Positions 48,898-60,869 of a DNA stretch of 64,000 nucleotides are shown piece by piece. Numbering within the stretch: position 1 is the first letter of the stretch; every line of letters begins with the position of its first letter. This DNA comes from Umezawaea endophytica. Lineage in GTDB: Bacteria > Actinomycetota > Actinomycetes > Mycobacteriales > Pseudonocardiaceae. Location: positions 1-64,000 of the forward strand of contig NZ_JANYMP010000003.1 of NCBI RefSeq assembly GCF_025061645.1, in the 5' to 3' direction. Under the pieces are notes generated by a model that made no database searches, had not been told where the DNA came from, and saw only the letters and a list, made by a program, of their open reading frames with translations. A program made the position numbers and the translations under genes.

Positions 48898-48973
48898 CTG
48901 ACAACGGGTCCGCGCGACCTCGCCGAACGGTCGCCGGTGGCTAGCGTTGGCGGATCCACACCACGGAGGTGTC

Positions 48974-51082
48974 ATGGACCGCACACCCGTCCGTCGTGGG
49001 CGCCGGCGCCCTGTCCTGATGATCACCGCGCTGCTCTCGGTCGTCGCGCTCGCCGCGGGCAACCCCAGCGTGACCGCCGCTCCCCTCGACGATCCCCTGC
49101 ACCACTGGCGGTACGACCACTGGCCGCAGCAGCAGCCGTGGCAGCAGTCCCGCGATTCCGCCCGAGTGGCGGCCCAGGCCGGGTTCCCCGGCCCCGTCGA
49201 CCCGCAGAACTGGGTCAACCCCGACCACATGACGTGGGAACGGGACTACCGGAAGATCCCCGGCACGTCCTGGGCCGACCCGTCGCTCAAGGGATCGGTG
49301 CGCAACTTCAAGGGCGCGCTGGTCCTGCTCGACTACCCGAACCAGCCGTTCGTCGTGACGCAGCCGCGGAACTCGACGGTGTTCGGCAACCCCAGCGCGG
49401 AGGCCAGCGGCGTTCCCCGCGACCAGGTCGCCCAGTTCTACCAGGACTTCCTCAACAAGCCGAACGCGCTCAACCGCGGCCACACCGTCAACGAGTACTG
49501 GATGGAGGACTCCGGTGGGCGCTACGGCGTCGACCTGAAGGGGTTCGGCCCGTACACGATGCCGGGCAAGGACCACGAGTACGCCATGGAGTTCCAGGGG
49601 GGCACCGCCTGCCCCGCGGGTGACACGTGCAACCGCAACATCCGCACCGACGGCAACGCCGCCTGGCTCGCCGACGTCGGCCAGGAAGTGCCCAAGGGGT
49701 ACGACTTCGTGTACTTCCTGTCCGCGGGCCAGGACGAGTCCGGTACCTGGCAGGAGTTCGGGACGATGAAGTTCCCGACCAAGGAGGACGTGACCGACGA
49801 GTTCGGGCCGCCCGACCCCGCCCTGCCGAACTGGTCGCGCACCCGCTACGTCGAGTGGACGTCGTGGGCCGCGGGCTCCAGCATCTGGCCCAACGCGGGC
49901 GGCGGCTCGTCCACGCAGGCCGAGAGCTCCGGCCAGGGCGTGTACGCGCACGAGCTGAGCCACCTGCTCGGCATCGGCGACAACTACAACAACCCGTACG
50001 GCAGCCCACCCCGCCGCGACTACAACGGCATCTGGGACATGCTGTCGCGCGGCTCGTTCAACGGTCCCGGCGGCCCGCACTCCCGCTGGGTCATCCCGGC
50101 GACCGCGGGCGCGTCGATGGGCGCGCAGCACATGCTCCGCAACAAGATCAAGCTCGGCATCGTCGACGAGCGCAACGTGCTGCGCCTGTCCAGGGAGGCG
50201 CTGGCGAGTTCCGGGGTGGTCGTCGCGAAGGTGACCGCCCGCACCGTCCAGTCGGGGCCGAACGGGCTGGCGGGGGTCAACATCGCGCTCGGCACGGGTG
50301 ACCTGTCGCCCGCCTGCGACGTCCGGACCGACCCGTTCTGCGACGGCGGCGGGTACCAGAACTACACGGTCGAGGTCGTGGACCGGATGGGGGTGGACTC
50401 GTTCACGCCGGACGCGGGCGTGCTGCTGGCCAAGACCAAGAACGAGGACCAGGCGCCGTTCGCCTGGGTGGTGGACGCCAACCCGCAGGACATCGGCATG
50501 ACCGACCACGTCCTACCGGACGGGACGCGGGTGCCCATCACGATCGGCGACTACCGGCAGTTGTCGGACGCCCTGTTCCACGCGGGCACGAACTCGGGCA
50601 GCGAGTACGAGTACGTCGACCAGGCCAACCGGCTGCACTTCCTCGTGCTGGACGTCAAGCGCGACGGCCAGGGCGTCCTGTCGTACACGGTGGCCATCCG
50701 GTCGCTGGACGGCGCGGGCCCGCAGCAGCGGGGGGTGCGGGTGTCGCCGACCACCGGCCGCACCGGCTCGGACGGCGTGGCGACGTGCCGGTTCCCGCTG
50801 GTCAACACCGGCCGCACCGCCCCACCGGCCGGGCAGCACCCCGAGCCCGTCACCCAATACCTCGACAGCGACGTCTACCGGGTGTCGGCGAAGGCCGAGG
50901 GCGGCTGGTCCGTCTCGGTGCCCAACACCCTCGCGACGGCGAAGTTCGGCGGCCGGGTCGAGGTGCCGGTGCACGCGAAGCGGGACGGCGGCCCGCAGGT
51001 GTCGAAGGTGACCCTCACGGCCAGGTCGGAGAGCGACCCGACGAAGACCTCGACCGCCTCCTGCACCGTGTCCGCCAGGTAA
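48974..51082 (+). CDS. Secreted M6-family metalloprotease
   Basis: This 702-residue exported protease has a Sec signal peptide (1-36, with RRGRRR before the hydrophobic core). The M6 (immune inhibitor A-like) peptidase domain has zinc motif HELSHLLGIGD (His326, Glu327, His330 and the third ligand region). A C-terminal beta-rich domain follows. ATG 48974 has GGAGGT directly upstream, and a TAGCGT -10-like hexamer lies at 48942-48947. A 21-bp hairpin terminates it. It probably digests environmental protein. Confidence 0.92.
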   Translation: MDRTPVRRGRRRPVLMITALLSVVALAAGNPSVTAAPLDDPLHHWRYDHWPQQQPWQQSRDSARVAAQAGFPGPVDPQNWVNPDHMTWERDYRKIPGTSWADPSLKGSVRNFKGALVLLDYPNQPFVVTQPRNSTVFGNPSAEASGVPRDQVAQFYQDFLNKPNALNRGHTVNEYWMEDSGGRYGVDLKGFGPYTMPGKDHEYAMEFQGGTACPAGDTCNRNIRTDGNAAWLADVGQEVPKGYDFVYFLSAGQDESGTWQEFGTMKFPTKEDVTDEFGPPDPALPNWSRTRYVEWTSWAAGSSIWPNAGGGSSTQAESSGQGVYAHELSHLLGIGDNYNNPYGSPPRRDYNGIWDMLSRGSFNGPGGPHSRWVIPATAGASMGAQHMLRNKIKLGIVDERNVLRLSREALASSGVVVAKVTARTVQSGPNGLAGVNIALGTGDLSPACDVRTDPFCDGGGYQNYTVEVVDRMGVDSFTPDAGVLLAKTKNEDQAPFAWVVDANPQDIGMTDHVLPDGTRVPITIGDYRQLSDALFHAGTNSGSEYEYVDQANRLHFLVLDVKRDGQGVLSYTVAIRSLDGAGPQQRGVRVSPTTGRTGSDGVATCRFPLVNTGRTAPPAGQHPEPVTQYLDSDVYRVSAKAEGGWSVSVPNTLATAKFGGRVEVPVHAKRDGGPQVSKVTLTARSESDPTKTSTASCTVSAR

Positions 51083-51279: not shown

Positions 51280-52482
51280 GTGAGCGAGCACGGGTCGCGG
51301 GACCCACGGGGCGCGCTGGCGCGCAACTCCTGGCTCGCCGCGCTCATCTGCGTGGTCGTCGACACCGGCGGCTTCGTGTTCAGCGGGTCGAACCCGGCGC
51401 TGTCCGGACGCGCGTGGGCGGTGCTCGTCGTGTTCGTGGCGGCCGACGCCTGCCTCGCGGCCCCGGCCCGCTTCACCGGCGGGATCGCGCTGGCGCACGC
51501 GGTGGCGCTGGTCGTCACCCCGGTGCTGCTCGGCGACGAGGGGACCCGCGACCTGTCCAACACCGGCGCGCTGGTCGCTGGCTACCTCGCGGGGGCGTGG
51601 CTGCGGCCGGTGCCCGCGGTGGTGTCGCTGGTCACGCTGTCCGCCGCGACCACGGCCAACGAACTCCTGGCCTGGGACGGCGCGCACGGCCGCGCCGCCC
51701 TGCTGTTCTCCGTGCTGGCCAACGGCGCCCTGCCCTGGGTGGTTGGGCGGCACACCACCACCCGCCGCGGCCACCTCGCCGCGCTGGAGCAGCGCGCCGA
51801 ACGCCGCGAGCACGAGGAGCGGATGGCCGTCGCGGAGGCCGTGGCCGAGGAGCGCAGCGCCATCGCCCGCGACCTGCACGACGTCATCTCCCACCACGTC
51901 AGCGCCATCTCCGTGCACGCCGCCGCGGCGCGCATCGCCATGCCGGGCGGGCAGAGCGGCGGAGCCGGGGCGATGAGCCGCGCCCTGCACGCCGTCGAGA
52001 CAGCCAGCCGGGCCGCGATGCTCGACCTGCGGCGGCTGCTCGACCTGCTGCACGGCCGCGGCGACGCCGACGCGGAACGCCAACCCGGCCTGCACAACCT
52101 GGAGGAGCTGCTCACCGGCGTGCGGCGCGCGGGCCTCGCCGTGTCGTTCACCTCGACCGGCGCCGGGATCGTCGACCTGCCGGACTCGCTCGACCTGGCC
52201 ATGTACCGGATCGCGCAGGAGTCGCTGACGAACGCGCTGCGCCACGGCGGCCCCGGCGAGGTGCGGATCGACCTCGACCACGGCGCGGACGGGATCGTCC
52301 TGACCATCACCAACCCGCTGCCCGTCACCCGGTCCTGGCCGAAGCCCTCTTCGCCCGGCCGCGGCCTGGACGGCGTGCGCCGGCGCGTCGCCCTGTTCGA
52401 GGGCGACGTGGAACTCGGCCCCACCGCGGACAGCAGGCACTGGCGCGTCCGCGCCCGCTTCCCCGAGGAGACCCTGTGCTGA
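51280..52482 (+). CDS. Sensor histidine kinase, NarL/DesK type
   Basis: This 400-residue kinase has about five to six membrane helices (residues 17-155), then HisKA_3 with His200 (AIARDLHDVISHH) and HATPase (N-box ESLTNALRHG; GRGLDGVRRRVA). The start is GTG 51280, without a clear ribosome site. Its stop overlaps the response regulator gene. It lies directly upstream of the four-gene envelope operon, so sensing of metal or redox state for that operon is a reasonable but untested idea. Confidence 0.93.
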   Translation: MSEHGSRDPRGALARNSWLAALICVVVDTGGFVFSGSNPALSGRAWAVLVVFVAADACLAAPARFTGGIALAHAVALVVTPVLLGDEGTRDLSNTGALVAGYLAGAWLRPVPAVVSLVTLSAATTANELLAWDGAHGRAALLFSVLANGALPWVVGRHTTTRRGHLAALEQRAERREHEERMAVAEAVAEERSAIARDLHDVISHHVSAISVHAAAARIAMPGGQSGGAGAMSRALHAVETASRAAMLDLRRLLDLLHGRGDADAERQPGLHNLEELLTGVRRAGLAVSFTSTGAGIVDLPDSLDLAMYRIAQESLTNALRHGGPGEVRIDLDHGADGIVLTITNPLPVTRSWPKPSSPGRGLDGVRRRVALFEGDVELGPTADSRHWRVRARFPEETLC

Positions 52483-53144
52483 CCGTGCTGCTCGCCGACG
52501 ACCACGCCCTGTTCCGCTCGGGCGTGCGCGCCGTGCTCGACGCCCAGCCCGACCTGACGTGCGTCGGCGAGGTCGCCGACGGTCGCGCCGCCGTCGACGA
52601 GGTGGCCAGGCTGCGGCCCGACGTGGTGGTCCTCGACGTGCGGATGCCCGAGACCGACGGGCTGACCGCGGCCGAGGCGATCATGACCACGCCGGGCAAC
52701 ACGACGGCCGTGCTCGTGCTGACCACCTACGACAGCGACGAGAGCCTGCACCGGGCGCTGCGCGCGGGCGTCAACGGCTTCATCCTCAAGAGCATCCCGC
52801 CCGAGGAGATGATGTCCGCGATCCGCGTCGCCGCGCGCGGCGACACCGCCATCGACCCGTCGGTGGCCCGCCGCCTCTCCGCCCTCATCGCGACCACCGT
52901 CCGCGCGCCCGAACCGCCGCGGGAGCTGGACAAGCTCACCTCGCGCGAGCACGAGGTGCTGCTGCTGCTCGCCGCGGCCCGCACCAACGCGGAGATCGCC
53001 GCGCACCTCCAGCTCGGCGAGGAGACCGTCCGCACCCACGTTTCGCGCGTGCTGGGCAAGCTGCGCCTGCGCGACCGCGCCCACGCGGCGGTGTTCGCGC
53101 ACACGCGGGGCATCGTGCGCGCCGCCGAGCGCCGCGGGCGCTGA
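52476..53144 (+). CDS. Response regulator, NarL/FixJ family
   Basis: This 222-residue regulator has phospho-acceptor Asp54 (VVVLDVRMPETDG), switch region LTTYDSDE, FILKSIP and LuxR HTH (LTSREHEVLLLLAAARTNAE). GTG 52476 is chosen for GAGGAG six bases upstream; it overlaps the kinase stop by 7 bases. It ends 91 bases before the envelope operon, which reads in the same direction. Confidence 0.94.
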   Translation: MLTVLLADDHALFRSGVRAVLDAQPDLTCVGEVADGRAAVDEVARLRPDVVVLDVRMPETDGLTAAEAIMTTPGNTTAVLVLTTYDSDESLHRALRAGVNGFILKSIPPEEMMSAIRVAARGDTAIDPSVARRLSALIATTVRAPEPPRELDKLTSREHEVLLLLAAARTNAEIAAHLQLGEETVRTHVSRVLGKLRLRDRAHAAVFAHTRGIVRAAERRGR

Positions 53145-54705: not shown

Positions 54706-55151
54706 GATCACCGTTCATCGCGGGCGCCTGGTACGACCGACGACTGGTCCTCGCGCTCGTCGGCGTGGTCTGCGTGGCCGTCGCGGGCGCGCTGGCCCTC
54801 GTCCTGATCAAACCCGCCGTCGGCACCACGGGTGCGTTGCGCGCCAACGGGACGCACCACGCGGTGAGCCTGACCGTGGCCACCGCGCGGGTCGGCACCA
54901 CCGCGATCGACATGACCTTCACCGGCACCGACGGCCTTCCGTCCACACCGGACGAAGTCGAGGTCGACGTGGTGATGGCTCGAATGGGTCACGTCCTGTC
55001 CACTGTGGATCTGGTTCCCACCGGTCCGCCCGGCAGCTACCGCGCCGCCGCGGTGGAGCTGCCGATGAGCGGCCAGTACGAGATCACCGTGCGCACCAGC
55101 GATCCGGGCGGCGACGACCGGATCGTGTTCCCCCTGCTGGTCAGCGGATGA
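54702..55151 (+). CDS. Membrane-anchored YtkA/FixH-like protein
   Basis: This 149-residue protein has one N-terminal membrane helix (14-37) and an outer beta domain (SLTVATARVGTTAIDMTFTG; VVMARMGHVLSTVDLVPTG; GPPGSYRAAAVELPMSGQYE). It resembles the YtkA-like beta domain, with Met/His residues (MARMGH) that could bind copper. ATG 54702 overlaps the previous stop. It is followed by the polytopic protein of the operon. Confidence 0.8.
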   Translation: MRSPFIAGAWYDRRLVLALVGVVCVAVAGALALVLIKPAVGTTGALRANGTHHAVSLTVATARVGTTAIDMTFTGTDGLPSTPDEVEVDVVMARMGHVLSTVDLVPTGPPGSYRAAAVELPMSGQYEITVRTSDPGGDDRIVFPLLVSG

Positions 55152-55189: not shown

Positions 55190-56338
55190 ATGGATCAGCT
55201 CTCACGAGCGCGGACCACGACCGCGGAGGACGCCCCCGCTCGGGGCGGCCCGTCCGGCGGCGTCGGCGTCGTCGCCATCCTGACCGGCACCATGCTGTCG
55301 CTGTTCGGGATGAGCTGGGACATCCAGTGGCACGAGGACGTCGGCCCGGACACGTTCTTCACCCTGCCCCACCTGTTCATCTACGCGGGCAGCGCCGTCG
55401 CGGGCATCGCCAGCCTGGTGATGGTCCTGCGCGTCACGGCCGCGACCAAGGCGGGCCGCCCCGTCGACCCCGCGGCGGGCGGGACCGCCGTCGGCGTCTT
55501 CGGCAAGACCTTCGCCGCCCCCGTCGGCTACCTGGTGACCGGCACCGCCGCCGCGGTGTTCCTGTTCTCCGGGCTGTGGGACCAGGTGTGGCACTCGACC
55601 TACGGGTTCGACGCCACCATCGCCTCCCCGCCGCACGTCGCGCTGCTGGTGTCCGTCGCCTTCACCATGATGGGCGTGGTCGTCACCTGCGCCGCCGCCG
55701 CTCGGACCACCTGGGGCAGGCGCGGCTTCCAGCTCTCCCTGGCGATGCTCGCGTTCTACGTGGTCGTCCCGCTGAAGTCCCTCGACGTGTTCGAGGGCGG
55801 GCCGGTCAACGCCGTCCAGGTAGGTGTCGCGTTCACCACCGCGACCGCGCTGGTCACCTCCGCGTACTTCCTCCGCGACGTCCGCGAGTTCGTCGTCGTC
55901 GGACTCGTCTGCGTGGCGCTCCAGGCGACGCTGTGGCTGTTCTCCCCGTGGGCGTCCGAGGTCTACGCCGACTCGGTCGGGCTGCCGCTGCGCGACATCG
56001 TCTCGCCGTCGCCGGACGTGCCCTCCGCCTTGCCGCTGACCCTGCTGCCGATCGTGGTCGGCCTGGCCGTCCTGGTCGCCGCGAGCCGCTCCCGCGGCTG
56101 GTCGCCGACCGGCGTCGCCCCTCTCGGCGGCGCGGGCGTGGGCCTGGTCGTCGCGCTGACGATGCCGTTCCAGCTCGCCGCCGTGGGGCAGGAACCGCCG
56201 CAGGCGCTGGGAACGACCCTCCTCACCGCCGTCGCGGGCGTGGCGATCGGCGCGCTCGGCGGGTTCGTCGGCGTGCGCTTCGCGACCATGCTCCGCACCC
56301 TCGAATCGTCCGCTCCCCTGACCGCAGGAGGCCGTTGA
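55190..56338 (+). CDS. Polytopic membrane protein with two PmoC/AmoC-like metal motifs
   Basis: This 382-residue protein has about nine to ten membrane helices. Two related segments stand out: SWDIQWHEDVGPDTFFTLPH (residues 42-61) and LWDQVWHSTYGFDATIASPP, then His149. The first has Asp44-x3-His48-x12-His61, the second Asp131-x3-His135-x13-His149. From memory, PmoC and AmoC carry their copper site on D-x3-H-x12-H within a DxxWH...DTxFTxxH context, which the first segment matches closely. ATG 55190 (GAGGAG directly before) is preferred to ATG 55148. A divergent copper membrane enzyme subunit is proposed. Confidence 0.85.
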   Translation: MDQLSRARTTTAEDAPARGGPSGGVGVVAILTGTMLSLFGMSWDIQWHEDVGPDTFFTLPHLFIYAGSAVAGIASLVMVLRVTAATKAGRPVDPAAGGTAVGVFGKTFAAPVGYLVTGTAAAVFLFSGLWDQVWHSTYGFDATIASPPHVALLVSVAFTMMGVVVTCAAAARTTWGRRGFQLSLAMLAFYVVVPLKSLDVFEGGPVNAVQVGVAFTTATALVTSAYFLRDVREFVVVGLVCVALQATLWLFSPWASEVYADSVGLPLRDIVSPSPDVPSALPLTLLPIVVGLAVLVAASRSRGWSPTGVAPLGGAGVGLVVALTMPFQLAAVGQEPPQALGTTLLTAVAGVAIGALGGFVGVRFATMLRTLESSAPLTAGGR

Positions 56339-56340
56339 CC

Positions 56341-56895
56341 ATGCGCACCCCGTGGCTGCGCACCGCAGCACTCGGCACCACCGCGGCGCTGGCACTGGCG
56401 CTGGGCACCGCCGCGCCCGCGTCCGCCTTCGAGCCGGTGGAGATCGTGCACACCGAACGGGTCCAGGTGGGCCCGTACCCGATGACCGTGGGCTTCAGCG
56501 AGTGGCCGATGCGGGCCATGCACTCCCTCGACGTCACCTTCATGCCCGAGGGCGGGACGGCGGGCCGCAGCGGTCAGGTCGAACTGCTCCTCGACTCCGC
56601 GGAGTCGGAGGTCGAACCGCTCGTCCGGCACCCGCGCAAGCAGGAGGTGTGGGGCCTGGACGTCTACGCGCTCGACGACCCCGGCGCGTGGACGTTCAAG
56701 TTCACCCTGGACGGTCCGGAGGGGCGCGGTGAAGGCGCGATCCAGGCGGTGAACGTGCTGGAGCAGCCGGGGCCCCCGCTGGCGCTGAGCTGGTCGCTGA
56801 GCGTCGTCCCCGTGGCGATGGGGGTGCTGTTCCTCGTCGTGGCCTGGCGCCGGATGCGGCCCGGCGACCAGGTCGGGACGGTCCTCGCCACCTGA
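56341..56895 (+). CDS. Exported single-helix protein of the copper-like operon
   Basis: This 184-residue protein has a signal peptide (1-29, ending ASAFEP), an extracytoplasmic beta domain (EIVHTERVQVGPYPMTVGFS; DVYALDDPGAWTFKFTL) and a C-terminal membrane helix (about 150-171) with a short basic tail. Signal, beta domain and C-terminal helix is also the layout of PmoD-type accessory proteins. It starts 2 bases after the previous stop. A perfect 13-bp hairpin follows, closing the operon. Function is unknown. Confidence 0.82.
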   Translation: MRTPWLRTAALGTTAALALALGTAAPASAFEPVEIVHTERVQVGPYPMTVGFSEWPMRAMHSLDVTFMPEGGTAGRSGQVELLLDSAESEVEPLVRHPRKQEVWGLDVYALDDPGAWTFKFTLDGPEGRGEGAIQAVNVLEQPGPPLALSWSLSVVPVAMGVLFLVVAWRRMRPGDQVGTVLAT

Positions 56896-57724: not shown

Positions 57725-58054
57725 GTGGGCATTCAGGACATGATCGAGGGCAAGAAGCAGTGGCGGGCGCACGTGGCGCGGGTCAAGGCGCTCCCGCCGG
57801 ACTACCGGATCGTCTACCAGGAGATGCAGAAGTACTTCTTCAAGGTCGGCCCCATCGACCTGACCGACGGGACCCTGCTCTCGGGGCTCGTCGACTTCTT
57901 CGAGGAGGGCGCCGCGGCGGGAAAGGGCGTCCTGCAACTCATCGGCGACGACGTCGCTGCCTTCTGCGACGACCTCATCAAGGACTCGCGCACCTACGCG
58001 GAGCTGTACCTGGAGTCCGTCAGCCGGGAGGCCGGCGCGGGAGGGAGGTCGTGA
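57725..58054 (+). CDS. DUF1048 protein (second)
   Basis: This 109-residue DUF1048 paralogue begins GTG 57725 and shares the GVLQLIGDDVAAFCDDLIKD motif with the preceding protein. Its N-terminus (IQDMIEGKKQWRAHVARVKA) is the more canonical form. The two probably form a complex. It overlaps the hydrolase gene as GTGA. Confidence 0.92.
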   Translation: MGIQDMIEGKKQWRAHVARVKALPPDYRIVYQEMQKYFFKVGPIDLTDGTLLSGLVDFFEEGAAAGKGVLQLIGDDVAAFCDDLIKDSRTYAELYLESVSREAGAGGRS

Positions 58055-58916: not shown

Positions 58917-59663
58917 TCAGATGCCGCAGTTGGGCGCGGACCAGAGCCTGCCGGACCGCAGGGCCACGTGGACGTGGTCGTTGTGGTCGGGGTAGCCGGG
59001 GCCGAGGATCTCGGTGAAGCCGTGGTTGCGGGCCTGCTGGGCGAGGGCGCAGAAGCCCTGGACGCCCGCGCCGAGGTCGGCCGCGTCGCCGTACATGTGG
59101 CGGCTGGTGGCCGAGCCGCCTACCGCGCTGTTGCACGAGACGCTGCGGAAACCGCCGTTCACCGTGAGCGGGCGGTCGCCCAGCGCGTGGCGCAGCGCTT
59201 CCAGCTTCCACATGGTGACGAGGGCGTTGGCCTTGGCCTGCGTGGCCGACACCTTGCCGCCGGACCAGTCGCTGTTGCAGCGGTTCAGCTCGCCGTAGGT
59301 GAAGTGCACGGGGGTGCAGTCGTCGTCCTGGAGCGCGTAGATCTTGCTGAACGTGGCGGGGCCCGCGACACCGTCGGCCGCGAGGCCGTAGGCCTGCTGG
59401 AAGCGGACGACGGCGGACTTGGTGGCCGCGCCGAACTGGCCGTCGAGGCCGATCACCGCGCCGGAACCGGGGTAGCCGGAGACCCGGATCTGGAGCTGGC
59501 GCACGTCCTCGCCGCTCGCGCCCTGGGACAGCGAACGGCTCCAGGTGTAGCACCCGTCCATGGCGTGGACGTCGTTCGCCGTCACGGGTCCGGGATCGGC
59601 TGTCGCCGTCCCGGTGAAGGCGAGGAAGCTCGCGACCAGCACGAGCAGGATCCTGCGGATCAT
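58917..59663 (-). CDS. Secreted peptidoglycan-binding M15 D-Ala-D-Ala peptidase
   Basis: This 248-residue exported protein has a signal peptide (1-22), a PG_binding_1 domain (SGEDVRQLQIRVSGYPGSGA; DGQFGAATKSAVVRFQQAYG) and an M15 zinc peptidase domain with SRHMYGDAADLG and HNDHVHVAL ligands. It should cut D,D bonds in peptidoglycan. ATG 59663 has AAAGGTG upstream. The related M15-like protein at 59874 is the preceding gene on the same strand, separated from it by a hairpin. Confidence 0.93.
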   Translation of the reverse strand: MIRRILLVLVASFLAFTGTATADPGPVTANDVHAMDGCYTWSRSLSQGASGEDVRQLQIRVSGYPGSGAVIGLDGQFGAATKSAVVRFQQAYGLAADGVAGPATFSKIYALQDDDCTPVHFTYGELNRCNSDWSGGKVSATQAKANALVTMWKLEALRHALGDRPLTVNGGFRSVSCNSAVGGSATSRHMYGDAADLGAGVQGFCALAQQARNHGFTEILGPGYPDHNDHVHVALRSGRLWSAPNCGI

Positions 59664-59873: not shown

Positions 59874-60698
59874 TCAGATGTTCTGGTTCGCGAAGCCCTT
59901 GGTCGCGATCTTCGACAGCATCCCCTGCCACACGGACGAACTGGTGTGCGGGTCACCCGTCACGGCCAGCGCGGACTTGAGGCCGTTGAACGCGTTCTGC
60001 GTGTTCGGGCCCCAGATGCCGTCGATCGCCAGTCCGGCGGCGCGGAAGTTGTTGCAGGTGGCCTGGACGAACTTGGTGTCCGACTCGGAGTCCTTGAGCA
60101 CGCGGACCGGCATGCCCCCGAAGTCGGAGTGGATGTGGTCGGCGTGGTCGGCGTTGTACCAACCGTCCAGCACGTACCGGAACCGGCGGCGGCACACGGC
60201 TTCCGTCGCGAGGTAGCGCTTGCGGGTCGCGGCGGTGCTCGACGCGTGGGCCTGGTCGAGCGGCGAGATGGTGTTGCCACCGGACCAGCGCACGTGGTCG
60301 AGGTCCATCGCGGTGCCCGCGCCGTGCTGGCCCGCCTTGTCGACGTAGAAGCCCGCCGACACGATGTAGCTGATCGAGCCGTAGGCCGACGACAGCGACC
60401 GCAGGTCGCGGATCCAGGCGACGAGCGCGGTGTAGAACGCGTCGGTGGCCTGCCAGTTGCGGGCGGTGGTGTTGCCGCGGTTGGACCGCCAGTAGTACAC
60501 GGGCGTTCCGTCGATGTTCTGGAACGTCATCATCGCCAGCGCGCCGACCCCCGGCGCGAACTCGGACTCGCGGTGCTGATCGTTGATCTTGGGATCGGCC
60601 GCAGCCAGCCCCGGCGCGAGGGCCGACAGACCCGCGAGACCCGCGACGGCCGCCGCGCCCGTGACGAAGCCGCGCCTGGAAAGGTTGTTCTCGAACAC
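59874..60698 (-). CDS. Tat-exported M15-like peptidase with peptidoglycan-binding end
   Basis: This 274-residue protein starts at GTG 60698 (GAGGAG upstream) with a twin-arginine signal (LSRRGFVTGAAAVAGLAGLS). An M15/extensin-like catalytic domain follows (QHGAGTAMDLDHVRWSGG and DHADHIHSDFGG as probable zinc ligands), then a peptidoglycan-binding-like C-terminus (LAIDGIWGPNTQNAFNGLKS). It is expected to act on cell-wall peptides. Tat export is unusual next to the Sec-exported M15 enzyme. Confidence 0.88.
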   Translation of the reverse strand: MFENNLSRRGFVTGAAAVAGLAGLSALAPGLAAADPKINDQHRESEFAPGVGALAMMTFQNIDGTPVYYWRSNRGNTTARNWQATDAFYTALVAWIRDLRSLSSAYGSISYIVSAGFYVDKAGQHGAGTAMDLDHVRWSGGNTISPLDQAHASSTAATRKRYLATEAVCRRRFRYVLDGWYNADHADHIHSDFGGMPVRVLKDSESDTKFVQATCNNFRAAGLAIDGIWGPNTQNAFNGLKSALAVTGDPHTSSSVWQGMLSKIATKGFANQNI

Positions 60699-60869
60699 CC
60701 CGGTGACTCCTCTGTGTTCTGGCCGGCGGGGACAGGAGGAAGACCTGCCTCGCCAACCGGCGCGACGGAGTCTAGGGATCGCGCCCAGAACGGGGAACCG
60801 CACTTGACCTGCGGCTTTCCCATTCCTTTACCGGCCGTGCCGCACCGGGGCAGCCCACGCGGAACGACG

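Follow-up and report, generated by a model that had tools for sequence, protein, structure and literature searches.

A membrane protein with two Asp/His/His motifs

The first 64,000 nucleotides of contig NZ_JANYMP010000003.1 of Umezawaea endophytica, the whole stretch analysed here and referred to as the window, contain at 55190–56338 a gene for a membrane protein that resembles PmoC and AmoC, the C subunits of particulate methane monooxygenase (pMMO) and ammonia monooxygenase (AMO). The gene lies in an operon with a two-component system and three partner genes. AGGAG-like stretches immediately precede its ATG at 55190, and an in-frame ATG at 55148 is an alternative start. The translated frame carries two metal-type motifs, with D44, H48 and H61 located 4 and 13 residues apart in motif 1 and D131, H135 and H149 located 4 and 14 residues apart in motif 2. 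Both spacings agree with the preliminary description of the locus, which placed the segment DIQWHEDVGPDTFFTLPH at residues 42–61, although it spans residues 44–61. The duplicated D-x3-H-x12-H announced there is exact for the first copy, whereas the second reads D-x3-H-x13-H. Motif 1 comprises D44, W47, H48, D54 and H61, with Trp at +3 and Asp at +10 relative to the first ligand.

An AlphaFold2 model built with 27 sequences as input had a mean predicted local distance difference test score (pLDDT) of 89.9 and contained ten long helices; for a model of the core only, the pLDDT was 91.4. D44 and H48 were found near the end of helix 22–50 and H61 opened helix 59–87; likewise, D131 and H135 lay near the end of helix 112–138 and H149 opened helix 147–169. 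With the ligands in these positions, one triad bridges the two helices of each helix-loop-helix hairpin, and since four helices cross the membrane, both triads are predicted on the same membrane face. Lys and Arg were absent from the two metal loops and mostly located on the opposite side, a distribution of loop charges that suggests the outer face for the triads. No match to the protein was detected in Pfam or NCBIfam.

Conservation and distribution of the family

The window protein was aligned with 44 other loci, a subset of the protein-search matches. D44, H48, H61, D131, H135 and H149, as well as D54 and D141, were invariant (45/45), 16 columns in total were identical in all 45 sequences and W47 was present in 43 of them. 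Such invariance of the six ligands indicates that the motif is more than chance. Four loci falling outside the motif pattern also retained the six ligands, with variation at W47 or D54, one of them having Glu in place of D54. In other family members, motif 1 had the spacing H-x13-H or H-x14-H.

Alignment A1 comprised 27 sequences, drawing on 26 of the 44 other loci, and involved no selection by motif. The motif pattern was found in 77 loci, which gave 74 cores after the removal of a spurious frame (L060) and duplicates; alignment A3 combined 55 of these with the window protein (56 sequences), and the remaining 19 were omitted for redundancy, not for score. The cores were cut by the motif pattern, which by itself accounts for part of the invariance within A3 and A4; the pattern-free counts are those of the 45-sequence alignment and of the four loci that fail the pattern. 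Frames were cut by alignment position, and some alignment rows start upstream of the true start.

Of 200 genomes from the taxonomic family of the source organism, 62 contained relatives in the protein search, and of 396 genomes spread over the phylum, 47 were matched by the family profile (the source genome being counted in both). The source genome itself gave three matches in the protein search. A fourth, distant copy in it was identified with the profile in the reverse-strand frame L120:5454-6788, with the six ligands kept and the motif 1 spacing H-x11-H. Searching three AMO-bearing genomes gave further remote members, six of which were read (L121–L126). In the subfamily L121–L124, found in three genomes with true AMO genes, the six ligands were kept and Glu replaced the middle Asp (D-x3-H ... 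E-T-F-F-x-P-W-H), and L125 kept the six ligands without the middle acid. On viral contigs, neither the family nor AmoC had a confirmed relative.

When the two halves of the core were compared as profiles, half 1 matched half 2 with an E-value of 2.1e-11 and a probability of 97.3%, the reversed half 2 reaching a probability of 0.22%. On this sequence evidence, the hairpins represent a repeat within the protein. No significant repeat was detected between the CuC and CuD parts of the PmoC profile itself, so the duplication is visible only in the new family.

Relationship to PmoC and AmoC

As given in PMC12576850, the CuC site of PmoC consists of D156, H160 and H173 and the CuD site of N227, H231 and H245, and the two sites are about 6 Å apart and not filled together. 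The family shows the same order, a CuC pattern followed by a CuD pattern, and D131/H135/H149 corresponds in its [N/D]-x3-H-x13-H spacing to N227/H231/H245. The first CuD ligand differs, being Asp in 45/45 family sequences and Asn in 7/7 PmoC-type sequences.

The single window protein sequence found no match in the Protein Data Bank (PDB). The A1 profile confronted with 177,635 distinct PDB sequences gave three matches at E ≤ 10, all of them ammonia monooxygenase subunit C, with weak E-values (0.053, 0.17 and 0.25) and aligned on D..WH.....DT.FT..H. For the A3 profile (hmmsearch), six of seven PDB matches were AmoC or PmoC, the best with an E-value of 0.0009, and the seventh was Modulator of smoothened (E 0.47), which lacks the motif. 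A3 also matched the true amoC genes of the three AMO-bearing genomes with E-values of 0.014, 0.134 and 0.134. In the opposite direction, Pfam AmoC (PF04896) did not match the window protein at E 1, matched two of the 56 core sequences (best E 0.0037) and was found in 3 of 198 genomes of the phylum, with the source genome not among them.

The comparison of A3 with seven PmoC/AmoC/HmoC sequences by hhalign gave a probability of 91.3% and an E-value of 9.4e-7, with both hairpins in register; A1 against the PmoC-type sequences gave 24% and 8e-4 in the same register. When hhalign was rerun locally with different settings for the match columns, it gave 83%, an E-value of 9e-6 and a score of 41.7, which none of 200 column shuffles attained (maximum 20.7; reversed profile 13.1). 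The signal was borne by hairpin 1, which alone matched PmoC with an E-value of 7.8e-6. Hairpin 2 alone scored better on the CuC region of PmoC than on CuD, although its best alignment on the CuD part was exactly in register; its assignment to CuD is based on register and order, not on score.

The patterns D-x2-W-H-x5-D-x6-H and [DN]-x3-H-x5-[DE]-x5-P-x-H each occurred exactly once in 7/7 PmoC-type sequences, and in shuffled sequences at most 5e-5 times each. The distance between the first residues of the two motifs was 71–74 in the seven PmoC-type sequences, 70–96 in 73 of 74 family cores and 87 in the window protein. A Foldseek search of the core model against 350,542 PDB chains placed PmoC/AmoC at ranks 1–7 of 164 matches, with a probability of up to 0.95 and a template modelling score (TM-score) of 0.39–0.56, none of them with an E-value below 0.34.

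Taken together, these data make a remote homology to PmoC/AmoC very probable. The first alternative of the preliminary description, that the protein is a divergent, undescribed relative of the copper membrane monooxygenase C subunit, was supported, as AmoC/PmoC led the PDB profile and structure searches and the profile match exceeded 200/200 shuffles; of the properties on which that view depended, profile similarity to AmoC/PmoC and retention of the six ligands in homologues (45/45) were found. The duplicated metal site, taken there as a mark setting the protein apart from PmoC, does not have this value, since PmoC possesses its own CuD with the 4 and 14 spacing. The protein is not a subunit C proper, because it lacks a match to Pfam AmoC, has Asp for the CuD Asn and comes from a genome in which the A and B subunits were not found. 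It further differs from PmoC/AmoC in the six extra helices that follow the core and in its operon.

Organization of the operon and its partner proteins

The features of the locus are listed in Table 1. Their occurrence was counted by tblastn (E < 1e-5) in 20 neighbourhoods of the same type as the window (type A), besides the window itself, and the operon partners there shared a strand and kept the same order. A relative of the kinase was detected in 15/20 and of the regulator in 16/20 type-A neighbourhoods, the regulator at L102 being about 7 kb away. Among the downstream genes of the window, the PadR gene and the small gene at 57725 recurred in 0/20 and the hydrolase gene in 1/20.

Table 1. 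Features of the PmoC/AmoC-like operon in the window.
Feature	Position	Strand	Remarks
Sensor histidine kinase (HisKA_3)	51280..52482	+	
Response regulator of the pair	52479..53144	+	Assigned from a look at the sequence; start codon approximate
Partner protein, 489 aa	53236..54705	+	Found in 19/20 other neighbourhoods
YtkA-like protein (PF13115)	54708..55151	+	Found in 15/20 other neighbourhoods
PmoC/AmoC-like membrane protein	55190..56338	+	382 aa, ten long helices in the model
Metal motif 1, CuC-like: D44-x3-H48-x5-D54-x6-H61	55319..55372	+	
Metal motif 2, CuD-like: D131-x3-H135-x5-D141-x7-H149	55580..55636	+	Asp where PmoC has Asn
Secreted, probably anchored protein	56341..56895	+	Found in 20/20 other neighbourhoods

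The YtkA-like gene scored 27.4 bits against a Pfam cut-off of 25.9. In its product, M90, M93, H95 and M120 were kept in 15 or 16 of 16 sequences, and the profile of this partner matched a solved structure named 'Copper resistance protein' with an E-value of 6.4e-6. According to PMC13344008, YtkA domains in B. subtilis take part in the use of copper and in the assembly of cytochrome oxidase, and YcnJ combines a CopD and a YtkA domain in a single protein. The operon resembles the YtkA/CtaK and YcnJ copper importer systems in that a YtkA protein with conserved Met and His residues is found beside a polytopic membrane protein whose ligands are of a metal-binding type. The difference lies in the membrane part, which is PmoC-like here and not CopD; with no Pfam match, and so no CopD, the likeness to the YcnJ system is limited to the partner and the presumed job.

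Examined by eye, the 489-residue partner consists of a signal peptide, a beta domain, two helices and His/Met-rich beta domains. Residues H281, H293, H295, M394, H397, H422 and H424 were invariant (20/20), and at E-values up to 1 its members matched Pfam YtkA in 9/20 and PKD in 8/20 cases. The identification of this partner as PmoB was considered on the strength of its layout and rejected, as the match was confined to the region around the signal peptide: with signal peptides removed, hhalign against three PmoB-type sequences gave a probability of 0.5%, and 4 of 60 shuffles scored as high. The protein encoded at 56341–56895 has conserved H39 and H99 (numbered from codon 56335) and is PKD/Ig-like by a weak profile match.

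Of the surrounding genes, the one at 48947–51082, directly upstream of the two-component pair, gave an M6-type peptidase match (E 1.6e-8). The frames at 58917–59663 and 59874–60803, both on the minus strand, encode neighbouring look-alike secreted proteins, which we take to be D-Ala-D-Ala carboxypeptidase-like with a peptidoglycan-binding part.

Fused and plasmid-borne forms

Two further forms of the family were distinguished. Type B frames mostly had about 590–720 residues and comprised the core and a C-terminal extension, which by eye consists of a beta domain and then a last helix; one type B protein was scanned and no Pfam match over the cut-off was obtained. A small secreted protein adjoining a fused type B relative (L108:5619-5972) showed a weak likeness to Cupredoxin_1 (E 0.0011, below the cut-off).

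Type C proteins of about 480 residues, annotated as 'hypothetical protein', were encoded on plasmids of Mycolicibacterium, Streptomyces and Leifsonia. The plasmid search returned seven records with the window protein as the query and six with a plasmid relative, all of them actinobacterial; six of the seven were examined, the proteins of records H4 and H5 being identical. Genes for P-type ATPases, HMA-domain proteins, a multicopper oxidase, cupredoxins and metal-sensitive or CopY-family regulators were found in the neighbourhood of type C genes, and 5/6 plasmid loci had at least one metal-linked gene each within 8–10 kb. The weakest setting was that of L083, with a YHS domain and a CopY-type regulator only. 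The sixth plasmid locus (L084, Rubrobacter) contained a short unannotated frame with the core and both motifs, and no metal-resistance genes were annotated nearby. The family thus has relatives in actinobacterial plasmid metal-resistance islands, with genes for P-type ATPases, HMA proteins, a multicopper oxidase and cupredoxins around them, whereas in the window operon, of which some flanking genes were scanned, only the YtkA gene was recognised.

The spacing between the motifs was 70–71 residues in 5/5 type C proteins. When the PmoC profile was run against 82 sequences, 27 matched at E-values up to 100 (0/82 when reversed), and two of the five type C members scored best, with PDB-scaled E-values of 0.011 and 0.025. 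In the C-terminal part of all five (L079–L083), A-x-A was found after a helix and before HDPGQG; it could be a signal-peptidase site, a putative cut at which would free an N-terminal His.

A probable role in copper handling

The data point, with fair but not full certainty, to a remote homologue of the PmoC/AmoC copper core that serves copper handling and not the oxidation of hydrocarbons or ammonia. This reading is based on the invariant ligands, the lead of AmoC/PmoC in the searches, the YtkA partner, the metal genes around the plasmid relatives and the fact that AmoA and AmoB were not found. Judged from sequence, copper is most likely the metal. By analogy with PmoC, the two hairpins, each with one Asp/His/His triad on one, probably outer, membrane face, would give rise to a pair of adjacent copper sites, and copper might pass from one to the other. 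The secreted partners, one with the Met and His residues of the YtkA type, one His/Met-rich with two helices and one an anchored beta-domain protein, could pass copper to or from the membrane site, and the two-component system of the operon would set expression.

Several observations weigh against this interpretation. The search for AmoA (PF02461), which gave no match in the source genome at E 1, was run without a positive control. Hairpin 2 alone was within chance in its match to the CuD part (79 of 200 shuffles scored as high) and was therefore rejected as proof of it. In the geometric alignment (VIA), designed or generic four-helix bundles and cytochrome c oxidase subunit III came first, and PmoC was absent from its 50 rows; as Foldseek weighs residues as well as shape and VIA lists other folds, the evidence from the fold is suggestive only. 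In the distant paralogue L126:1731-4217 (reverse-strand frame), all motif 1 ligands were lost and those of motif 2 kept, so not every copy is able to bind metal at both places. The two flanking genes that were scanned (L091:5376-6593 and window 48947–51079) were not copper genes, and the role proposed for the partners is read from family names and conserved His/Met residues.

Some of these points would suit an unrelated four-helix membrane protein that binds zinc or iron through Asp/His/His and arrived at the motif by convergence, in line with the VIA ranking being unspecific for PmoC, the Foldseek E-values and the chance-level score of hairpin 2, and with zinc having occupied CuC in the first PmoC crystal structures (PMC12576850). 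Such an origin is nevertheless quite improbable: Trp at +3 and Asp at +10 are common to both groups besides the ligands, the PDB and shuffle results described above exceed chance and a YtkA partner is encoded alongside. That both hairpins match in order and register is not readily explained by convergence. A new catalytic copper monooxygenase, in which the PmoC-like core oxidises a small substrate, the partners replace PmoB and the six extra helices replace PmoA, is unlikely. It would fit the retention, with Asp for Asn at CuD, of the ligand sets of both CuC and CuD, where the disputed active site of pMMO has been placed (PMC12576850), CuD having been put forward in recent work, and it would also fit the PmoB-like layout of the 489-residue partner. 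However, that partner matches PmoB around the signal peptide only, the CuD Asn is replaced throughout and the plasmid relatives sit among metal-resistance genes. The monooxygenase is made less likely by the failure to find the A and B subunits in the genome, a result for which only the B search had a working control: AmoB/PmoB (PF04744) gave no match at E 1, whereas the control matched 3/3 AMO genomes. A further candidate is a membrane protein that senses or reduces copper and supplies the input to its own two-component system, without serving transfer or storage. The frequent relatives of the kinase and regulator in type-A neighbourhoods and the response regulators annotated at two plasmid loci, one of which also has a sensor kinase, speak for it, but the pair was missing at four or five type-A loci, the three fused type B loci tested had no such relatives and the plasmid regulators were not detected as relatives of those in the window (E 1e-3), which renders this role improbable.

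Implications for the origin of subunit C

With copper handling as the preferred function, a tentative scenario for the enzyme can be put forward, in which CuC and CuD arose by duplication and divergence from a single Asp/His/His hairpin, with the repeat still visible in this family, and the ancestor of subunit C was a membrane protein for handling copper; the module that oxidises methane may have started out as a part for handling copper, or may have been put to that use later. Within the set examined, the plasmid form would be the nearest relative of PmoC, because of its 70–71 spacing (71–74 in PmoC), the two best scores with the PmoC profile and the A-x-A/His arrangement in 5/5 members, which could expose an N-terminal histidine as in PmoB.

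The family is widespread and new, with a relationship to a known kind of protein, and lies outside Pfam and NCBIfam; among titles and abstract openings of the open-access literature, full texts apart, none was recognised as treating it. Particulate methane monooxygenase is hard to express. The surprise is that the ligand pattern of both candidate methane monooxygenase sites exists without the enzyme, in a setting linked to copper and as a visible repeat. A large family that keeps both site patterns without the A and B subunits provides a route to study such sites alone and offers a testable origin for subunit C of the enzyme. A function may also be suggested in this way for many actinobacterial membrane proteins that lack annotation, some of them carried on metal-resistance plasmids.
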